NCBI GenBank assembly: GCA_000701625.1
Contig: JNJK01000005.1
Span: 62,001 to 126,000, forward strand
Direction: 5' to 3'
Origin: Lachnospiraceae bacterium MC2017
GTDB taxonomy: Bacteria > Bacillota > Clostridia > Lachnospirales > Lachnospiraceae
Length of the DNA stretch: 64,000 nucleotides
The notes under the pieces are model-generated. The model made no database searches and was not told the DNA's origin. It worked only from the letters and a program-made list of their open reading frames with translations. This document shows, one piece after another, positions 23,862 to 33,539 of this stretch (position 1 is its first letter; each line of letters opens with the position of its first letter). The translations under genes and the position numbers were made by a program.

Positions 23862-24590
23862 CTATTCGATCGCAGGCACTCTTATCACTTTACCGCTTCT
23901 AAGTATCCTCGGATTGCTGATATTATTTGCTTCTGCGATAGCTCTCCACTGTCCGGGATCACCGTACTCGGAGGATGCGTATGACCATAGTGACTGTCCC
24001 TGTTCAATAGTTCTGAACTTGGCAGTATCCGGTGAGCCGAAAGGATTCATCTTTACCTTTGCGCCCATTTTCGTGAATCTGAAGAATACACAATCCATGG
24101 TCGCTCTAACCGGTATACCCATATCTGAAAACTTAATAAGGTTAACATTACAGCTTTTTAAGAATCCTTCAAATTGCAAGCTCGACCATTCGACCTTTAC
24201 AAGCGGTGGAATATGCGCCTTTGGTTCTATCTGCATGAGGCCGTAAACCTTATCTGTCATCTCCCGCACATCAAAAAATTTTGACAAACTGTTTACTACC
24301 TGTGACCCCTTAAGTTTCAATCCATCCGCTACTGACGGTGCATTTTTTGCACCTGTAGAAAAACTGTCAAAGAACAGCTGCATTGACAAGGTTTCAACTG
24401 TACCATAAGTGAACTGAACTGCCGGAGAATCAGAATCAAAAGCAGGATCCATACCGAACTCTGCATTCTTTGAAAGCTGATAGGTCGTAGGATTGTATTC
24501 CACGTAAAAATTTTTCTTCGTGATCATGTTGGTGATCTTCATTTTCCTGACCGGCGTATCCATATTCAAATTTCCGGATCCTGCATACAA
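23862..24590 (-). CDS. LysM-domain baseplate hub adaptor (Afp7/Pvc7-like)
   Basis: The 242-residue protein has an N-terminal beta-rich part (VRKMKITNMITKKNFYVEYN, PTTYQLSKNAEFG) of the kind seen in gp53/gp48-like hub adaptors. A C-terminal LysM domain follows at about residues 190-240 (EQGQSLWSYASSEYGDPGQW, NNISNPRILRSGKVIRVP). LysM-bearing proteins of this type link hub and wedge in contractile tails; the LysM here is not evidence for cell-wall binding. The start is a TTG at 24590: no ATG fits, and AAGGAGGG stands seven bases in front of it. It is followed closely by the gpD-like hub gene. Confidence 0.88.
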   Translation of the reverse strand: MYAGSGNLNMDTPVRKMKITNMITKKNFYVEYNPTTYQLSKNAEFGMDPAFDSDSPAVQFTYGTVETLSMQLFFDSFSTGAKNAPSVADGLKLKGSQVVNSLSKFFDVREMTDKVYGLMQIEPKAHIPPLVKVEWSSLQFEGFLKSCNVNLIKFSDMGIPVRATMDCVFFRFTKMGAKVKMNPFGSPDTAKFRTIEQGQSLWSYASSEYGDPGQWRAIAEANNISNPRILRSGKVIRVPAIE

Positions 24591-24620: not shown

Positions 24621-27600
24621 CTAAATGCGTCCTATCCTTCGACGTTCCTTACGGATACGTTCTTCGACCATTTTGAAAACCCGATCGGCCGTACGCCTGA
24701 TTTCTGCTTCGCTGATCCTGGCTTCTCTTTTTTGCTGTTTCTTTACTTGATCGTCTCCAACATTTCCGTTGTTTTTGAAAGTAAGACTCTCCGGTGTACC
24801 ATATCCTGCAAATGCCGGATTCACCCAATTTACTGTGTTTTCCATCGACTGCCTTACGGCTTCATCCGCACGGAGCGTATTCATACCACGATTTGCAAGC
24901 GTAGTGATGCCCTTGCCTGCCGTGTTTGTCATAGGATTATTCCAGTTTGTCATCGCAGGCGTATCATCAACAGTAACCTCCTCGAACTCGCCCCTTAGGA
25001 ACTTATCTGCGGAGGTGCTTGAGGTTCTGTTCTGTACGATATCTCTCATGGGTCTTAATGCTCCGGTCTCTATCTCTTTGTCTATCATATTTTTTAAGAG
25101 ATCCGGATATGAAGTTCCGTAATCCATCGATATCGGTACATATTGCACCTGTGTATCTCCATTGATCTTTTCCTGTATCGCCTGTGCTTCCATGGGACGG
25201 AGAAGCTTTACCGTCATGCCGCCAGACATTCCGATCCTGTCTACATTTTTTTGAACATTATGTCCGATACTTCCATTTTTTAGGAGAATTACTCCGGATA
25301 TATCTTTTGATGATGATATTTTCTTTAAGATTTCATTACCGATAGAAGAACTTTGAGCACTTGATCTTTTTCTATTATCTCTACCTTCCGATCGTTTTGT
25401 AGGCTTTGATGATCCTGCTTTTTCAGATGTCTCTGCCGAAATATTTCTATTCTTAGCATCTTTTGAACTGTATTCTCTTTTGTTGCTATCGTTAAGCGAA
25501 ATATCCGAACTCTTTCTAATATGATTGCTTGTCAATGAAGGATCATTTTTTTCATCATGCTCTAAAACAAGATTACTTAACTCTGTCGGCCCATATTCTC
25601 CTGCTTCTGCAAAAAACTTTTGCGGTAACTTATCTTTCAGCAGTTCATACTGCTTCTGAGCTTCACGTATGGTGATATCACGGACAGATGTTTCTATTTT
25701 CTCTTTCAGGTTTACTTTTTCCGAGATTTTATCTTTATTTACTTCTGCTTTTTCCTTTTCAAGCCCATTCAGAAGTTCTGTGATATTTGAAAAGTTTGCC
25801 CTGACTGTTCCACTCGTTCTATCTAAATTTTTTCCGTTTGCGGAAATCCCCGATGTGTTTACGTTTTGCTTTCCATCTGATCGTGTCTCACCATTTAATT
25901 CAACTTCATCCCTCGATAAATCCGACATCTCGAGATTTATAAGTTCTTCCGGTGCGTACGCTGCAAGCATCTCAGGAGAAAGTTCTGTCAGATCGGTTAC
26001 GTTTTTCATCTCATGTAATAATTCAGGCGAATGTGTAGCCATCCTCGTTTCATGAGAAATGTCTGAATCAGATAATTTATTACCGGTAATATCTCTCACA
26101 ATTGATGTCAGTTCATTTCCGGTAATATCTCTTACTGTTGATGTCAGTTCATTTCCGGTATTGTCTCTATCTGTTGGTATCAGTTTATTTCCGGCATTTT
26201 CGCTTGCCTTTGATACCAGTTTATTTCCGGTAATATCACTTAACTTTGATGCCGGTTCATTTCCGGTAATGTTTCTATCTTTTGATACCGATCCATTTCC
26301 GGGAATGTCTCTATCTTTTGATACCGGTTCATTTCCGGTATTCTTTTTTACTTTTGATGACAGTTCGCTTCTTGATGAAATATTGTTTCTTTCATCTGAG
26401 ATTCTTCCATCATCTGCATTTTTTTGTTCATGATCAGTTGAATTTCGAATTATTCTCTCAGAATTAACCGGTCTTTTTGATTCCTCTGAAGTTCTGTTTT
26501 TTCCTCCAGTATTCGGTTTATGAAAATATTCTGGATTTACAAAACTCCCTGAAACATCTGAAGTTTTTCCATGTACCGATTTTTCCTGAGTGTTTCCTCT
26601 ACTATTTCTATCTATGACACCATTTCTATCTATGACACCATTTCTATATGTGATACGTTTATCACTCAGTCCGGCATCATCATGAGATAGCTCCGGCATC
26701 TCAAGATTTATAAGTTCTTCCGGCGAATACGCTGCGAGCATCTCAGGCGGGAAATCTGACAGTTCTGACAGAATAGTTCCGTTTTTCATTTCATGTAAAC
26801 TGTCTGGATCAGAGATTTTATTCCCTGTAATATCTCTTACTGCCGATGTCAGTTTATTCCCGAGAATATCTCTTACTGTCGATGTAACTTCTTTTCCGGT
26901 AATATCTCTTACTGTCGGTGTCAGTTCATTTCCGGTAATTACACTTGCTTTTGACGCCGATTTATTTCCGATAATTTCACTTAACTTTGATGCCGGTTCA
27001 TTTCCGGTAATGTCTCTATCTTTTGATACCGGTTCATTTCCGGTAATGTCTCTATCTTTTGATACCGATCCATTTCCGGTAATATCTCTATCTTTTGATA
27101 CCGATCCATTTCCGGTAATGTCTCTATCTTTTGATACCGATCCATTTCCGGTAATGTCTCTATCTTTTGATACCGGTTCATTTCCGGTAACTACACTTAC
27201 CTTTGATACCGGTTCATTTCCGGTATTCTTTTTAACTTTTGATGACAGTTCGCTTCTTGATGAAATATTGTTTCTTTCATCTGAGGTTCTTCCATCATCT
27301 GCATTTTTTTGTTCATGATCAGTTGAATTTCGATTTATTCTCTCAGAATTAACCGGTCTTTTTGATTCCTCTGAAGTTCTGTTTTTTTCATGGATATGCG
27401 TTTTATGTATATATTCCGGATTTACAAAATTCCCTGAAACATCCGAAGCTTTTCCACGGACCGATTTTCCCTGAGAGTTTCCGCTACTATTTCTATCTAT
27501 GACACCATTTCTATCTGTGACACGTTTATCACTCTGTCCGGCATCATCATGAGATAGATCCGGCATCTCAAGATTTATAAGTTCTTCCGGAGAATACGCT

Positions 27601-29495
27601 GCGAGCATCTCAGGCGGGAGATCTGACAGTTCTGACAGAATAGTTCCGTTTTTCATTTCATGTGAACTGTCTGGATCAGAGATTTTATTCCCTGTAATAT
27701 CTCTTACTGTTGACGTCAGTTTATTCCCGAGAATATCTCTTACTGTAGATGCCACTTCATTTCCGGTAATGTCTCTATCTTCTAATACCGATCCATTTCC
27801 GGTAATGTCTCTATCTTTTGATACCGATCCATTTCCGGGAATGTCTCTATCTTTTGATACCGGTTCATTTCCGGTATTTTCTCTTACTGCTGATGTCAGT
27901 TCATTTCCGGTATTCTTTTTAACTTTTGATGACAGTTCACTTCTTGATGAAATATTATTTCTTTCATCTGAGGTTCTTCCATCATCTGCATTTTTTTGTT
28001 CATGTTCAGTTGAATTTCGATTTATTCTCTCAGAATTAACCGGTCTTTTTGATTCCTCTGAAGTTCTGTTTTTTTCACCAATATGCGGTTTATGAAAATA
28101 TTCCGGATTTACAAAATTCCCTGAAACATCCGAAGCTTTTCCACGGACCGATTTTCCCTGAGAGTTTCCGCTACTATTTCTATCTATGACACCATTTCTA
28201 TCTGTGATACGTTTATCACTCAGTCCGGCATCATCATGAGATAGATCCGGCATCTCAAGATTTATAAGTTCTTCCGGAGAATACGCTGCGAGCATCTCAG
28301 GCGGGAGATCTGACAGTTCTGACAGAATAGTTCCGTTTTTCATTTCATGTGAACTGTCTGGATCAGAGATTTTATTCCCTGTAATATCTCTTACTGTTGA
28401 CGTCAGTTTATTCCCGAGAATATCTCTTACTGTCGATGTGACTTCTTTTCCGGTAATATCACTTACTTTTGACGACGATTTATTTCCGATAATTTCACTT
28501 AACTTTGATGCCGGTTCATTTCCGGTAATGTCTCTATCTTCTAATACCGATCCATTTCCGGTAATGTCTCTATCTTTTGATACCGATCCATTTCCGGGAA
28601 TGTCTCTATCTTTTGATACCGGTTCATTTCCGGTATTTTCTCTTACTGCTGATGTCAGTTCATTTCCGGTATTCTTTTTAACTTTTGATGACAGTTCGCT
28701 TCTTGATGAAATATTGTTTCTTTCATCTGAGGTTCTTCCGTCATCTACATTTTTTTGTTCATGATCAGATAAATTTCTATTTATTCTCCCAGAATTAACC
28801 GGTCTTTTTGATTCCTCTGAAGTTCTGTTTTTTTCGTAGATATTCGTTTTATGTATATATTCCGGATTTACAAAATTTCCTGAAACATTCGGATTATTTC
28901 CCTGTAAATCAAGATTTACGTTTCTTCTTTCATTCGCATTTTTGTATTCAAGTATTCTTTTTACTGAAGGTGAAACACTGTATCTTGAATTATTCTCAAG
29001 ATTTGTCCGGCTCCGTTCCAATATCCGTTTTTCTGTTTCTATGACTTTCTGTCTCTCATGGATCAGCTGGAGCCGTTCTTTCGATACTTCATTAAGCCGT
29101 TCGACATACTCTGTCTTTTCTTTTTCACGTTCAGTTATGCTTTTTTTCTCTGTTTCACGTATGACCGCATCTGCTCTGTCGAGAATTTCCCGCGCTTCGC
29201 GGCTGAGCTTTCCTGCTTCATTTTCAAGCGCATGGAGATGAGCTTCGACCAGTTCAAAAGTCAGATCGTAGCTCAGATTAATTTCTGTACCAGCTTCACT
29301 TTTATTTTCTTCATCCTGAGACTCTTCTAAAAACTCGAGTTCTTCATAAGGAAAGAAATTATGATTTCCCTTAACTCTGTCGAGTATCTGCTGCGTAAAG
29401 CTCTCCACAAGCAACGCCTCAGGACTAATGAGACGATTCCGGTCTACTACTGACATATTTAATTTTGTCATTGCAATAGATCCGTCTTCTCTCAA
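24621..29495 (-). CDS. giant repetitive protein (1,624 residues), possible spacer or tape-measure role
   Basis: Unrecognised. Residues 1-200 include coiled-coil helices (EKEKTEYVERLNEVSKERL). Residues about 220-1,170 are four large repeat blocks. Each has a VNPEYxHK segment, a SEESKRPVNS segment, a run of 12-residue units of consensus I-T-G-N-x-x-x-S-x-x-R-D (about 9, 7, 12 and 8 copies), and a PPEMLAAYSPEELINLEM segment. The C-terminus (about 1,230-1,624) has more normal composition and ends ISEAEIRRTADRVFKMVEER plus a basic tail, a helix seen at the end of other eCIS proteins. The start is TTG at 29495, with GGAGG six bases upstream, overlapping the previous stop. A particle-attached disordered spacer, adhesin or ruler are all possible. 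Confidence 0.75.
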   Translation of the reverse strand: MREDGSIAMTKLNMSVVDRNRLISPEALLVESFTQQILDRVKGNHNFFPYEELEFLEESQDEENKSEAGTEINLSYDLTFELVEAHLHALENEAGKLSREAREILDRADAVIRETEKKSITEREKEKTEYVERLNEVSKERLQLIHERQKVIETEKRILERSRTNLENNSRYSVSPSVKRILEYKNANERRNVNLDLQGNNPNVSGNFVNPEYIHKTNIYEKNRTSEESKRPVNSGRINRNLSDHEQKNVDDGRTSDERNNISSRSELSSKVKKNTGNELTSAVRENTGNEPVSKDRDIPGNGSVSKDRDITGNGSVLEDRDITGNEPASKLSEIIGNKSSSKVSDITGKEVTSTVRDILGNKLTSTVRDITGNKISDPDSSHEMKNGTILSELSDLPPEMLAAYSPEELINLEMPDLSHDDAGLSDKRITDRNGVIDRNSSGNSQGKSVRGKASDVSGNFVNPEYFHKPHIGEKNRTSEESKRPVNSERINRNSTEHEQKNADDGRTSDERNNISSRSELSSKVKKNTGNELTSAVRENTGNEPVSKDRDIPGNGSVSKDRDITGNGSVLEDRDITGNEVASTVRDILGNKLTSTVRDITGNKISDPDSSHEMKNGTILSELSDLPPEMLAAYSPEELINLEMPDLSHDDAGQSDKRVTDRNGVIDRNSSGNSQGKSVRGKASDVSGNFVNPEYIHKTHIHEKNRTSEESKRPVNSERINRNSTDHEQKNADDGRTSDERNNISSRSELSSKVKKNTGNEPVSKVSVVTGNEPVSKDRDITGNGSVSKDRDITGNGSVSKDRDITGNGSVSKDRDITGNEPVSKDRDITGNEPASKLSEIIGNKSASKASVITGNELTPTVRDITGKEVTSTVRDILGNKLTSAVRDITGNKISDPDSLHEMKNGTILSELSDFPPEMLAAYSPEELINLEMPELSHDDAGLSDKRITYRNGVIDRNGVIDRNSRGNTQEKSVHGKTSDVSGSFVNPEYFHKPNTGGKNRTSEESKRPVNSERIIRNSTDHEQKNADDGRISDERNNISSRSELSSKVKKNTGNEPVSKDRDIPGNGSVSKDRNITGNEPASKLSDITGNKLVSKASENAGNKLIPTDRDNTGNELTSTVRDITGNELTSIVRDITGNKLSDSDISHETRMATHSPELLHEMKNVTDLTELSPEMLAAYAPEELINLEMSDLSRDEVELNGETRSDGKQNVNTSGISANGKNLDRTSGTVRANFSNITELLNGLEKEKAEVNKDKISEKVNLKEKIETSVRDITIREAQKQYELLKDKLPQKFFAEAGEYGPTELSNLVLEHDEKNDPSLTSNHIRKSSDISLNDSNKREYSSKDAKNRNISAETSEKAGSSKPTKRSEGRDNRKRSSAQSSSIGNEILKKISSSKDISGVILLKNGSIGHNVQKNVDRIGMSGGMTVKLLRPMEAQAIQEKINGDTQVQYVPISMDYGTSYPDLLKNMIDKEIETGALRPMRDIVQNRTSSTSADKFLRGEFEEVTVDDTPAMTNWNNPMTNTAGKGITTLANRGMNTLRADEAVRQSMENTVNWVNPAFAGYGTPESLTFKNNGNVGDDQVKKQQKREARISEAEIRRTADRVFKMVEERIRKERRRIGRI
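26055..28710 (-). repeat. 36-bp tandem repeats in four superblocks
   Basis: About 36 in-frame units of 36 bases encode 12-residue repeats in the giant protein. They are grouped at roughly 28380-28700, 27680-27930, 26820-27235 and 26060-26350, separated by long conserved segments of about 330-440 bases. The third block (about 27003-27185) has neighbouring units that are identical over most bases, which implies recent expansion. Distances between equivalent points of the blocks differ (687 and 867 bases between landmarks at 28321, 27634 and 26767), because the number of short units differs. Confidence 0.85.
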
Positions 29496-29950
29496 GTGCA
29501 GCCTCCATACATAAATTCTATTCTACTTATAGCTAAAGATGGTGAGTTACTGTTAAGTACCGGTCCGCTGTAGCTTACAAGAACCGCGCTGTTAATACTC
29601 CAGGATCTGACCTTTCTGCCTGCTGCATCCTTTAGGACTATTTCTCCATCCATTGAAATACTCATTCCGGAATTTACGAGTTTTATCCACGTGGCAAACG
29701 AGTCCGTATCTGTTACAGTTCCCTGTTCCAGTACGAGCCTCTGCGGTACACCCTTATCCAATAGAAAAGTCGGTGCCATAGATCCGCCTTCGTAATAGGT
29801 CTGATAACTAACTTCCATTCCCAGACCACTTACCGATGTAAATCTGCCGCTGAGTCCGGACAATGCTCCGACCAGGCCTCCAATGACTCCAAACGAAACT
29901 TCAAAATAGGCACCGGAAACATATTTTTCAGTTACTTTCTGTTCCTGCAT
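29492..29950 (-). CDS. tail tube-fold protein (third copy)
   Basis: The 152-residue protein resembles the gp19-like tube family: SGAYFEVSFGVIGGLVGAL, then FTSVSGLGMEVSYQTYYEGG, LVLEQGTVTDTDSFATWIKL and a final SPSLAISRIEFMYGG. The V-S-G-L-G-M-E-V block followed by Y-Y-E-G-G is the family's signature. In eCIS particles, extra tube-fold proteins (Pvc5/Pvc6-like) join the tube to the hub. The gene ends with the codons that carry the GGAGG site for the giant protein's TTG start, so the two are coupled. Confidence 0.82.
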   Translation of the reverse strand: MQEQKVTEKYVSGAYFEVSFGVIGGLVGALSGLSGRFTSVSGLGMEVSYQTYYEGGSMAPTFLLDKGVPQRLVLEQGTVTDTDSFATWIKLVNSGMSISMDGEIVLKDAAGRKVRSWSINSAVLVSYSGPVLNSNSPSLAISRIEFMYGGCT

Positions 29951-30048: not shown

Positions 30049-30576
30049 TCAAGCCTTATTAGCTATTTTTTTCTTTAATTCCTCTTCCCCCGGAGCGCGT
30101 CGTTCAAAACCCGAATATGCAAATTCGATAGACTCCATAAGTACTCCGCTATTTAATGAACTCATATTTCCCAAGGAATAAGAAACCGGATAAGCGCCGT
30201 AAAGATCCCAGGCAACTCCCTCTTTACCTTCTTCAGTAAGGACAACTATATGTATCGTCTTCCTGACTGCCTTTTTCTCATTTGCGCCTCCCTCAAAAGT
30301 TGGAAAACAGCTAAATACCCAGTCAAGGAAACGGTTGCCGAATGTAACTCCGCGAGTCAGCGTCAGATTACTGTACTCAACCGTAGCCGGGACTACTCCC
30401 TGTGCTCCGCGTTCGTCAGCTCCGCTCCGCATACGGAGAACATGATTCACAACCCTTATACCGGAACATTCAGAAAAAGCGGCGTCTTCCGGCTCGCTTT
30501 CACCATCCTTTGTATACCCTTCTCCGCTAAGCGTCACTCTAAATCTAAAGGAACGCAAAAGTTCTGCATCTGGCAT
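30049..30576 (-). CDS. tail tube initiator-like protein (second tube copy)
   Basis: The 175-residue protein belongs to the gp19-like tube family: LRSFRFRVTLSGEG, AAFSECSGIRVVNHVLRM, LTLTRGVTFGNRFLDWVF and MSSLNSGVLMESIEFAYSGF. It has a longer charged tail (EEELKKKIANKA) than the main tube protein at 31234-31719. By analogy to Pvc5 it is likely to form the first tube ring on the hub. An AAGGG site precedes the ATG. After its TGA stop the same frame stays open for 22 codons (down to 29980). Confidence 0.83.
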   Translation of the reverse strand: MPDAELLRSFRFRVTLSGEGYTKDGESEPEDAAFSECSGIRVVNHVLRMRSGADERGAQGVVPATVEYSNLTLTRGVTFGNRFLDWVFSCFPTFEGGANEKKAVRKTIHIVVLTEEGKEGVAWDLYGAYPVSYSLGNMSSLNSGVLMESIEFAYSGFERRAPGEEELKKKIANKA

Positions 30577-30586
30577 ATTTTAACCC

Positions 30587-30781
30587 TTACTTAAATTCAA
30601 TCCTGTTTTTATCTTCTCCACTTAGTTTCCTGTTGATAAGTGAAATCTCTCTGCACCATCTGCGTCTTTCCCTATGATCCATATTCATGAGATCATCCTG
30701 ATTCCAATGCAGATAATATGCGAGAAATGCCATCTCTTCATAGAGCCTGTCAGGTGGATAGCTTACAAGCCCTGATTCAAT
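30587..30781 (-). CDS. DUF6760-like -1 frame extension of the tail-assembly gene (no start codon of its own)
   Basis: A 64-codon open frame in the -1 frame relative to the upstream gene. It encodes IESGLVSYPPDRLYEEMAFL followed by AYYLHWNQDD, MDHRERRRWCREI and a basic end. The Y-P-x-D-R-L-Y-E-E-x-A-F-x-A-Y-x-x-H-W and H-x-E-R-R-R-W blocks recall the short DUF6760 proteins that follow this gene in eCIS loci. No ATG, GTG or TTG exists in this frame before the conserved motif; the frame opens only after a TGA inside the upstream gene. A T-TTT-TTA heptamer at 30781-30787 would put ribosomes into it, giving a product of about 181 residues. The coding character is convincing; expression by frameshift is inference. 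Confidence 0.72.
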   Translation of the reverse strand: MESGLVSYPPDRLYEEMAFLAYYLHWNQDDLMNMDHRERRRWCREISLINRKLSGEDKNRIEFK

Positions 30782-30787
30782 AAAAAA
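30750..30787 (-). promoter_or_regulatory. candidate -1 ribosomal frameshift signal
   Basis: The heptamer T-TTT-TTA (30781-30787, zero frame GAT TTT TTA) is a canonical X-XXY-YYZ slip site. Five bases after it a five-base stem TCAGG/CCTGA can form (30771-30775 with 30750-30754), enclosing the zero-frame TAA stop. The zero frame ends five codons after the slip. Confidence 0.65.
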
Positions 30788-31131
30788 TCCAGCGGAACCT
30801 CAAACTCTTTTCCGCACTCAGGACAGGTTACTTTATATGAAGGCATCTCCTTCATGTTTATCCTCTGATAAAAGTCCTGCAGATACGCGAGATCCATCGT
30901 AAACAGATTCTCGATTATCTGATTTGACACCTTCGGAAGTGTTCCGAGCTGTGTGATAACTCTCGACAATAATATGATCGTTAAATATGAAGAATTTGCC
31001 TGTACTCTCGGATCTCTTAGCGGCAGGATCTCGTCTGCTGCCGTTGCAAGTCTCATCTTCCCTGTTTTATGCACTTCTCCCGCCGGATCGACATATCCTT
31101 TCGGAAGTTCAAATTCAAATTCAGTCTGCAT
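30763..31131 (-). CDS. tail assembly protein with C-x-x-C motif
   Basis: The 122-residue protein starts TEFEFELPKGYVDPAGEVHK and has VITQLGTLPKVSNQIIENLF and LAYLQDFYQRINM. It ends VTCPECGKEFEVPLDFLLNQ, one C-x-x-C knuckle of zinc-ribbon type; only two cysteines are present, so metal binding might need pairing. Proteins like this stand between the tube genes in eCIS clusters and resemble phage tail assembly chaperones in size and position. GGGGAG lies nine bases before the ATG. The last codons contain the slip site that leads into the 30587-30781 frame, so a short and a long form are expected, as for lambda G and GT. Confidence 0.83.
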   Translation of the reverse strand: MQTEFEFELPKGYVDPAGEVHKTGKMRLATAADEILPLRDPRVQANSSYLTIILLSRVITQLGTLPKVSNQIIENLFTMDLAYLQDFYQRINMKEMPSYKVTCPECGKEFEVPLDFLLNQGL

Positions 31132-31233: not shown

Positions 31234-31719
31234 TCAGATCGGTGAAGGTGTTCCGGCAGCAGCGCCTGCAGTTGTTTTCCAGATACCCTCGTGGCAGATT
31301 TCAAGTGACTCGATAGCCACTTCATTACCAAGACCGGAAAGATCCGGAATGTTGTAGCCTACCGGCCATGCATTGATAAGAGTCCAAACCGGACCATTTG
31401 CGCCTCCGGCATCATCAAACAGTGTGATCACAATATCATGACGAACCAGACCTACCGGTCCTGCTTCATTATTCGGAGCTACCGAATGAACCCAGTCCAG
31501 GAAGTCTACGTCAGTCGTAGTACCCCAACGAAGTGTAATATTGCCGAAAGTTGTAAGTCCCGGCAGTTTACGTGGTGTATTCCTTAAGTCGTCGCCTTCA
31601 CGGTATTCAACGACTGCAGTTGCGAGATTCATTCCGGATACCTCGGAGAAACTTGCACGAGCAATGCCATCGATTTCTACCTGGTACCGAAAGACTCTAT
31701 ACGGATAATTAATAGCCAT
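31234..31719 (-). CDS. main tail tube protein (Afp1/Pvc1-like)
   Basis: The 161-residue protein of the T4 gp19-like tube family begins MAINYPYRVFRYQVEIDG and has FSEVSGMNLATAVVEYREGD, LPGLTTFGNITLRWGTTTD and LSGLGNEVAIESLEICHEG. These are the strands that build the stacked hexameric tube. It follows the sheath gene by 29 bases, matching the usual sheath-tube pair, and is the copy closest to Pvc1/Afp1. A stable hairpin lies just after it. Of three tube-fold genes in the operon this is the likely bulk tube subunit. Confidence 0.92.
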   Translation of the reverse strand: MAINYPYRVFRYQVEIDGIARASFSEVSGMNLATAVVEYREGDDLRNTPRKLPGLTTFGNITLRWGTTTDVDFLDWVHSVAPNNEAGPVGLVRHDIVITLFDDAGGANGPVWTLINAWPVGYNIPDLSGLGNEVAIESLEICHEGIWKTTAGAAAGTPSPI

Positions 31720-31748: not shown

Positions 31749-33539
31749 TTATTCCGAAGCTGTCTTCTGAGTAATGCGGAAGATTACAAATTCAGCAGGT
31801 TTAACAGGTGCGATTCCGATATTGCAGATAAGTCTGCCGTTATCAATATCATCCTGTGTCATTGTCGTAGGTCCGCACTCTACGAAGTAAGCCTGCTCAG
31901 GTGCTGTTCCGGCAAGTGCTCCATCTCTCCAGCACGTTGCCAGGAAGGACTGGATCGTCCTTGTAACCCTGGACCAGAGAACCTCGGAATTTGGCTCAAA
32001 TACAACCCAGTTTGTATTGTTCTTGATGGACTGCTCTACATAAATGAAGAGACGTCTTACGTTTATGTACTTCCAGAGTCCATTGGAGCTCAGTGTTCTT
32101 GCGCCCCATACACGGATTCCACGTCCCGTGAATGCACGGATAAGGTTTACACCGATAGGGTTCAGGATATCCTGTTCAGCATCATTGTAGTTGCAGGAAA
32201 GACCTGTGCATCCGGATACAGTTTCATTTGCAGGAGCCTTATGAACACCTCTGTCAGTGTCAACTCTTGCATAAATACCTGCCATAGCGCCGGACGGAGG
32301 GAAATAAGCTGTGCGCTTAAGCAGCGGATCGAGCATCTCAAGCCAAGGATGATAAATAGCAGCATAGGTGCTGTCATACATATCACGGAAAGCAGAGATC
32401 TCATCAACCTTCTTCTTGTCGATAGGAATATCCAGAATAGCAAAGCAGCTGGTCTTATTCTCACAGAAAGCGATCAGTGTTGACTGAACTGTAGGATCTG
32501 TGACACCAGGAATTGCCATGATGGATACATTATTATTCTCGATAAATGCCTGCAAACCGGTACGTTTGCCCGGACCATTATCAGCACCTACATATACATC
32601 AGGAGTGATCTTTCCAGTTGAACCGTCAGATCCGCCTGACAGAGTGACAGAAACAGCCGCGTCATTACCGCCAAGCTGTGCAATAGGTGAAGGATTAGCA
32701 CCACCGGAAGCCGGAGCGGGTGCAGGCTTGCTGTCCTTGCCATCCTTTCCGTCCTTACCCTTATCAGGTGCAGGTGCCGGAGCTGGTGCTGGTGCTCCTG
32801 CTGCCTTTACACTAAAGCTAACGATTTCAGACTTCTCAGCACGGATTCCGATGTAGTTAGCTGCGAAAGGATTCAGGGAAACATCTGCAAATGTTTCTTC
32901 TGTGTCATCAATCTTTACGGTTACCGTTACTTCGCAGGTACGGATATACTTCTGGGTAACGATCGACTTGTCTGCTACATCAACAGTCGGAGCTGCTTCC
33001 AAAGTAACAGTCTTGTCCATAACTGACTTAACTGTTGCATAAGCCTTCTTGCTTCCGTCAAAGAGCTCTACTACATCACCTGCATTGAATCCGTCAGGAT
33101 TCTTTACGGTGAGGTCTGCACCTGTAGCAGAGAAAACTTGTGTCTTTGCCTTTGACGACGGAACAGCAGTGATCTTGATGCGGTTACCCCACTCACCGGG
33201 GTTAGCTGCCTCAGCATGAAGCACGCCGAGATCTCCGGCAGATGCCTTTGCATCATCAGGAGCTACTCTCATGATGTATGCTCTGGAACCACCATTCAGG
33301 AAAAACTGCTCTACAGCGTATGGAAGAAATCTTGCGTCGCCATATCTGGCATCACTTAAATATCCTCCATAAATCCTCTTGTAATCAGCAAAGCTGGTCA
33401 CAAACTGCGGAGCTCCAACCACTGTACCGCGTTCTGCAAGTCCGATAAACCCTGCTGTGCTTGTGCTGACGCCTTGCATCGGCACTGCGCCGGAGTCGTA
33501 TTCTTCCGTATATACGCCCGGATGTAAATACTCTGCCAT
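31749..33539 (-). CDS. contractile sheath protein
   Basis: The 596-residue sheath subunit has the typical N-terminus (YLHPGVYTEEYDSGAVPMQG, VSTSTAGFIGLAERGTVVG) and C-terminus (NNTNWVVFEPNSEVLWSRVT, FLATCWRDGALAGTAPEQAY, IGIAPVKPAEFVIFRITQKT). These end domains interlock to form the sheath mesh. The middle is a surface domain that contains an unusual linker at about residues 247-285 made of Ala-Pro and Gly-Lys-Asp repeats. Only one sheath gene is present, whereas Afp and PVC carry several. It is long for the family (many eCIS sheaths have 350-500 residues). Confidence 0.95.
   Translation of the reverse strand: MAEYLHPGVYTEEYDSGAVPMQGVSTSTAGFIGLAERGTVVGAPQFVTSFADYKRIYGGYLSDARYGDARFLPYAVEQFFLNGGSRAYIMRVAPDDAKASAGDLGVLHAEAANPGEWGNRIKITAVPSSKAKTQVFSATGADLTVKNPDGFNAGDVVELFDGSKKAYATVKSVMDKTVTLEAAPTVDVADKSIVTQKYIRTCEVTVTVKIDDTEETFADVSLNPFAANYIGIRAEKSEIVSFSVKAAGAPAPAPAPAPDKGKDGKDGKDSKPAPAPASGGANPSPIAQLGGNDAAVSVTLSGGSDGSTGKITPDVYVGADNGPGKRTGLQAFIENNNVSIMAIPGVTDPTVQSTLIAFCENKTSCFAILDIPIDKKKVDEISAFRDMYDSTYAAIYHPWLEMLDPLLKRTAYFPPSGAMAGIYARVDTDRGVHKAPANETVSGCTGLSCNYNDAEQDILNPIGVNLIRAFTGRGIRVWGARTLSSNGLWKYINVRRLFIYVEQSIKNNTNWVVFEPNSEVLWSRVTRTIQSFLATCWRDGALAGTAPEQAYFVECGPTTMTQDDIDNGRLICNIGIAPVKPAEFVIFRITQKTASE
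32685..32801 (-). repeat. Pro-Ala / Gly-Lys-Asp linker coding block in sheath gene
   Basis: About 39 codons of low complexity inside the sheath gene (PAPAPAPAPDKGKDGKDGKD then PAPAPASGG). The position is in the outward-facing middle domain of sheath proteins, so it is likely to be a flexible surface loop. Confidence 0.75.

Follow-up and report, generated by a model that had tools for sequence, protein, structure and literature searches.

A contractile injection system operon with an overlapping reading frame

The window (the whole 64,000-nt stretch that was analysed, from Lachnospiraceae bacterium MC2017) contains, on its minus strand, a contractile injection system operon. Genes matching PF04984, PF06841 (three times, all gp19-like tube proteins), PF19266 and PF04717 (spike) score above their cut-offs, and a hub-like neighbour (PF05954) scores below its own. 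A contractile sheath gene (31749..33539; PF04984, E = 1.6e-22; PF17482, E = 6e-19) and a tube protein gene (31234..31719; PF06841, E = 1.1e-37) are followed by the pair studied here, a chaperone-like gene and an overlapping DUF6760 frame. Two more tube-like genes come next, a second one directly downstream of DUF6760 (30049..30576; PF06841, E = 1.9e-25) and then a third (29492..29950; PF06841, E = 9.5e-17). The operon also encodes a CIS_tube protein with a LysM-like end (23862..24590; PF19266, E = 5.1e-24; LysM slightly below cut-off). A 1624-aa ORF (24621-29495, minus strand), located past the third tube-like gene and ahead of the CIS_tube gene, contains arrays of ~36-nt (12-aa) tandem repeats; its matches in Pfam and PHROG were uninformative, with no tape-measure match among them. 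In a Nostoc locus (L119), a large protein of different length comes after the second tube-like gene.

The 0-frame gene of the pair (30763..31131, minus strand) encodes a 122-aa tail-assembly-chaperone-like protein with a C-terminal CxxC zinc-ribbon-like motif. Residues 5-96 match PHROG family phrog_508 (tail assembly chaperone) in a profile search (E = 9.1e-9), in line with the original prediction, made from the DNA sequence, that this is a tail-assembly protein. In Pfam, TAC families included, nothing scored above a family cut-off. The predicted structure model of the chaperone has a mean pLDDT of 85.3, and a search of solved structures returned nothing for it. The window's genome carries a single copy of the gene, and a 99% identical chaperone is found in Lachnospiraceae bacterium NK4A144 (L028).

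The 3' end of the chaperone gene reads CCG CTG GAT TTT TTA TTG AAT CAG GGC TTG TAA. It includes the slip heptamer T TTT TTA (30781..30787, minus strand) in X XXY YYZ phase, with five sense codons between the heptamer and the stop, exactly as had been predicted. On the minus strand, the -1 frame is bounded by a TGA at 30802..30800 and a TAA at 30589..30587, and the extension that begins at the heptamer (30587..30781) spans 64 codons plus the TAA. It matches PF20546, DUF6760, with E = 4.9e-14 (52.6 bits against a curated cut-off of 27), and so both the open length of 64 codons and the DUF6760-like character ascribed to this frame hold. A -1 slip on the heptamer would yield a fusion of 117 + 64 = 181 aa. 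Solved-structure matches of DUF6760 consisted of antibody chains only and were regarded as chance.

Conservation and turnover of the slip site

Relatives were gathered from several sources: the window's family, where 27 of 299 genomes carry the chaperone; genome contigs searched with an 18-row alignment (best 80 loci of 544 relatives); 299 genomes of the window's phylum searched for PF20546 (6 matches); 148 genomes of the family of a Cohnella locus, L106 (25 matches); plasmid records, 35 of which matched DUF6760 with an E-value no higher than 1 (19 of these were fetched); and viral contigs (3 loci via DUF6760, 1 via the chaperone). Phyla other than the window's were sampled via plasmid records only, and further phylum scans gave no loci beyond the centre genomes and those already found.

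DUF6760 follows the chaperone in 109 of the first 113 loci, and does so in the -1 frame in 109/109. The full set of 161 loci includes 157 with both domains, and in 156 of these (duplicates included) DUF6760 overlaps the chaperone gene in the -1 frame; the four loci without the pair are L025, L026 (contig end), L027 (truncated) and L100. The one exception to the -1 relation is a Kovacikia plasmid (L132) whose chaperone frame is interrupted upstream, where the script paired another frame; read by eye, its junction keeps GGGGGAA. There were no in-frame chaperone-DUF6760 fusions among the 157 pairs. Long -1 ORFs at three loci (L231, L234 and L238) were considered as fusions and rejected, as they are -1 frame overlaps. 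At a group of oscillospiral loci (L032, L036, L043, L052 and similar ones), the -1 frame encodes ~45 extra residues after the slip site and ahead of the DUF6760 core.

For counting slip sites, the 157 pairs were thinned to 135 junctions at 90% identity. A site was defined as an in-phase XXXYYYZ (Y = A or T) or GGGGGA within the last 16 codons, the GGGGGA type having joined the rule only after the plasmid loci had been seen. The original prediction had proposed aligning the junction across Lachnospiraceae loci for conservation of the heptamer. Among the relatives gathered here, a slip sequence is kept in place near the chaperone end in 131 of 135 junctions, against 16.5 expected from synonymous resampling with local codon use. 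A canonical heptamer, without the GGGGGA type, is found in 107 of the 135. Elsewhere in the chaperone genes, 28 slip sites were counted in 14037 codons.

The site itself differs between relatives, with three main classes (A AAT TTT, T TTT TTR and G GGG GAR) that stand in for each other. By type, the 135 junctions carry A AAT TTT alone (51), T TTT TTG (24), T TTT TTA (19), G GGG GAA (16), G GGG GAG (8), C CCT TTT (2), C CCT TTA (1), G GGA AAC (1), a mixture (9) or none (4). Of the 131 junctions that have a site, 46 have T TTT TTR as their first one. The G class departs from a perfect XXXYYYZ. The junctions with no site by the first rule are L047, L120, L123 and L132; L120 and L123 carry G GGG GGA, and 133/135 junctions have a site when the rule also takes G GGG GGN. 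Two junctions combine different kinds, L005 with T TTT TTG and G GGG GAA, and L093 with A AAT TTT, T TTT TTG and G GGG GAA, as expected if slip classes replace each other over time. At least 4 changes are required to place the four classes on a chaperone tree, which is poorly resolved (12/132 inner branches starred).

Within the A AAT TTT class, codon choice at the site is fixed. Asn is encoded by AAT in 56/56 junctions (294/551 in the gene body; Fisher 7e-15), Phe by TTT in 56/56 (270/404; Fisher 2e-9), and the preceding base is A in 56/56 (131/551; Fisher 3e-32), with the caveat that related loci are not independent and these Fisher values are not true probabilities. The class had been picked by its heptamer; in a recount on the basis of the protein, among junctions selected for Asn-Phe in the last 16 codons, 55/56 have A AAT TTT.

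Past the 0-frame stop, variability in the -1 frame peaks at third codon positions (0.167, 0.146 and 0.515 for the three positions in the A class; the T and G classes behave likewise), which indicates that the DUF6760 domain is read as protein. This bears on the reading in which there is no product at all, the -1 ORF being a remnant or the frame break a sequencing error. Expression of the domain is a prediction from sequence, but the third-base pattern marks protein reading and the same arrangement recurs in all but one of the paired loci, across many assemblies; of the explanations considered we regard this as the least probable.

We also looked at chaperone genes that lack DUF6760. None of the eight examined (L025, L100 and L285-L290) has a slip site, which is modest evidence because about 1/8 of such genes would have a site by chance. 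The telling case is L287, from Streptomyces xanthophaeus, in which the LGEA ending is retained and GGC replaces GGG. L100 reads ATA AGC TTT, compared with ATA AAT TTT in its relatives. Loci L285-L291 were added later and lie outside the 135 junctions; plasmid records with the chaperone numbered 41, and those without DUF6760 were sampled in part. The Streptomyces plasmid genes L287 and L288 are orphans: the annotation shows neither sheath nor tube genes in their vicinity. On three Deinococcus plasmids (L285, L289 and L290), DUF6760 is absent and a different small -1 protein (VDLDEVTRRVY...) comes after the chaperone; in L285 and L289 the annotation has it overlapping by 4 nt.

Start codons and stimulatory elements

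We then considered how DUF6760 could be translated. A different account from frameshifting would make it a separate protein produced by coupled re-initiation, from an overlapping start or from a near-cognate codon (ATA, ATT or CTG) past the chaperone stop, with the conserved sequence serving as a ribosome-binding feature. DUF6760 is annotated as its own gene in public records, and pairing of the G run with 16S rRNA is conceivable. The window itself shows no ordinary start of this kind: its -1 frame has no ATG, GTG or TTG ahead of the ATG inside the conserved PPDRLYEEM stretch, and the junction as read has no ATGA or GTGA start-stop overlap. The original prediction that no start precedes the DUF6760 core is thus correct for the window, but it does not extend to the relatives as a whole. 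Among the 131 junctions with a site, the -1 ORF lacks any ATG, GTG or TTG before the core in 66 and has at least one in 65 (GTG or TTG only in 36, ATG in 29).

Homologous loci with a normal start and no slip site had been named as the case that would speak against a frameshift. The first half of that case exists, since GTGA or ATGA overlaps of start and stop occur in some Streptomyces loci, in Rhizobium and in Haloferax, but the second half does not, as G GGG GAA or G GGA AAC is kept there; L291, similarly, has GGGGGAA together with an ATG. Coupling may have joined or replaced frameshifting at these overlap loci. Re-initiation would have to proceed without an ordinary start in about half of the junctions with a site, and it leaves the exact phase of A AAT TTT and T TTT TTR unexplained. 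In a Nostoc and a Pseudanabaena locus, the DUF6760 gene is annotated from ATA (L119:2507-2677) and from ATT (L127:2507-2647), respectively, a sign that an ordinary start codon is missing. On balance, we consider re-initiation an improbable source of DUF6760, although the strongest competitor to a programmed -1 frameshift.

Sequences flanking the heptamer resemble known stimulators of frameshifting. A Shine-Dalgarno-like GAGG (30798..30801, minus strand) stands 10 nt ahead of the window's heptamer, and the same spacing is seen in relatives: GAGG lies exactly 10 nt upstream in 40/46 T-class junctions. The Glu codon at this position is GAG in 40 T-class junctions and GAA in 3, compared with 153:162 in the gene body. 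GAGG is found at 7 nt in 19/55 A-class junctions and at 10 nt in 7/24 G-class junctions. The Shine-Dalgarno spacing in E. coli dnaX is also 10 nt; that gene and its heptamer are different from those here, and its slipped product is the shorter one. The arrangement of upstream Shine-Dalgarno sequence, heptamer and downstream stem is shared with dnaX (PMC5009743).

Downstream, a possible stimulatory stem (30742..30773, minus strand) has its 5' arm at 30773-30765 and its 3' arm at 30750-30742. The predicted fold begins 7 nt after the heptamer, and not five bases after it as had originally been proposed. Taken alone, the window stem is no more stable than shuffled sequences (z +0.30), and the case for it comes from covariation among relatives. 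In 24 clostridial loci of the T class, the stem is paired in 80.7% of cells, shows 10 two-sided changes (1/500 shuffles as high) and has a covariation score above all 500 shuffles; two other measures were ordinary (276/500 and 428/500 shuffles as high). For the A class, the GCCGG/CCGGC stem has 90.5% of its cells paired and varies little. The G-class GGCTACC/GGTAGCC stem is paired in 72.0% of cells and its covariation was matched by 38/500 shuffles, which supports it weakly. The stems were named after the sequences had been inspected, and these counts covered 24/24 G-class, 42/55 A-class and 24/46 T-class junctions. RNAalifold did not recover the named stems: it found nothing for the A and G classes and only an unrelated 5-pair stem in the 24 T-class loci.

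Folding energies were also compared with shuffles in windows beginning 5 nt past the site. Each class was more stable than shuffles at one of the lengths: mean z was -1.58 for the A class at 30 nt (control -0.18), -1.89 for the G class at 45 nt (control -0.16) and -0.87 for the T class at 60 nt (control -0.22). In 30-nt windows, the T and G classes gave no fold signal (0.09 and 0.26).

These elements also bear on whether the ribosome is involved at all, since a fusion could be made by RNA polymerase slipping on a homopolymer run. Many sites do contain T6 or G5 runs. However, A AAT TTT, present in 56/135 junctions, mostly has no run longer than 4, the codon phase of the sites is preserved, and GAGG at 10 nt and a downstream stem are elements known to act on ribosomes (PMC5009743). 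Polymerase slippage therefore seems very unlikely, more so than re-initiation.

Phage counterparts and the proposed two-form chaperone

The layout had been likened to the G/GT tail-assembly chaperone pair of phages, and that likeness extends to homology, through the phrog_508 match and through a profile match to E' of phage P2. As in the window, P2 encodes a short 0-frame protein, E, and a -1 extension, E', with E+E' annotated as a -1 frameshift product; P2 slips on T TTT TTG, which is of the T TTT TTR type, as is the window's heptamer. The P2 gene order of sheath, tube and pair is also that of the window. The P2 E' domain belongs to PF06528 (E = 2.3e-22), whereas a HMMER search of the window domain against Pfam at E up to 10 saw PF20546 only and not PF06528. 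Comparing profiles with hhalign, we found that DUF6760 (126 rows) aligns with P2 E' (23 rows, near-copies for the most part) over 45 columns with a probability of 88% and P = 3.1e-6. The score of 32.1 exceeded those of all 200 column-shuffled profiles (at most 15.9; 0/200 as high). On this comparison, DUF6760 and P2 E' are distantly homologous, with DUF6760 lying outside PF06528. A tblastn search with DUF6760 against phages gave 4 records, the best at E = 3 and P2 GpE at E = 10, and was treated as a lead only.

The two systems differ in other respects. The window pair sits in a contractile injection system operon and not in a phage genome; its chaperone has a zinc-ribbon-like end and gave no match when compared with the P2 E profile; and two tube-like genes follow the pair where P2 has its tape measure gene.

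In phage lambda, the G/GT slip heptamer, G GGA AAG, differs from the window's, and the likeness is one of layout. Lambda makes two tail chaperone forms from one reading-frame arrangement, with the tape measure protein as the binding partner of the G part and the tube protein as that of the T part (PMC5009743). In a tail-chaperone cluster of a phage, frameshifting of 6-7% is reported for two of the genes (PMC3711429). A further likeness is to Mu gp41: the chaperone of a viral relative (L115) with DUF6760 matches PF23746 (Gp41_Mu, E = 2.1e-6) as well as phrog_508, although the PF23746 match is absent in the window chaperone. On this viral contig, the chaperone with its -1 DUF6760 is followed by a 769-aa ORF, and other genes resemble sheath, tube and tape measure genes by eye.

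Taken together, the pair looks like a P2- or lambda-type recoding pair in a bacterial injection system. We put at roughly 85% the probability that a programmed -1 frameshift yields two tail-chaperone forms from this one contractile injection system gene. Most ribosomes would reach the 0-frame stop and release the 122-aa chaperone, and some would slip by -1 on T TTT TTA to make the 181-aa chaperone-DUF6760 fusion, aided by GAGG 10 nt upstream and the stem 7 nt downstream. That a fraction of ribosomes slip we infer from the conservation of the site; a rate of slipping and an effect of the stimulators on it are presumed. Homology with P2 E/E+E' and the analogy to lambda G/GT suggest that a tape-measure-like protein is the partner of the chaperone part, that the DUF6760 part brings in tube subunits, and that the ratio of the two forms thereby tunes tube assembly; these binding partners are proposed from phages.

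A broader reading, to which we give even odds, is that the phage device of a two-form tail chaperone has been retained by contractile injection systems in many bacterial phyla. The slip site would have been replaced repeatedly (G GGG GAR, T TTT TTR and A AAT TTT, and C CCT TTN among viral relatives) without any change in its position or in the -1 relation. G GGG GAR would then be a natural bacterial -1 site with full re-pairing of the P-site tRNA only, and the ratio of forms would set either how the tube is assembled or how tape-measure-like effectors are loaded.

The mechanism is already known from phages. Within the literature searched, its presence in injection systems appears to be new, and so do the turnover of slip classes, the G GGG GAR class and the identification of DUF6760 as slip-made. 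That literature (titles and the starts of abstracts, outside preprints and most subscription journals) held no report of frameshifting in contractile injection systems, and the word DUF6760 occurred in no paper.

DUF6760, a family of unknown function, thereby gains a concrete putative role: it would be the half of a tail chaperone that is made by the slip. Injection systems are tied to P2-like tails through a mechanism and not through parts alone. On this view, annotations of DUF6760 as a gene of its own, for instance with an ATA or ATT start, would mark the wrong product. Rebuilt or transplanted systems are predicted to need the correct ratio of the two chaperone forms, and both tube assembly and the loading of tape-measure-related cargo become testable by one silent change. 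In Streptomyces, effectors related to tape measures are among the cargo of these systems, and the gene for one such effector lies directly upstream of the baseplate genes (PMC11126660 and PMC13277306). The window's 1624-aa repeat protein, encoded in a comparable place, may be linked to such cargo, which is a guess on our part.
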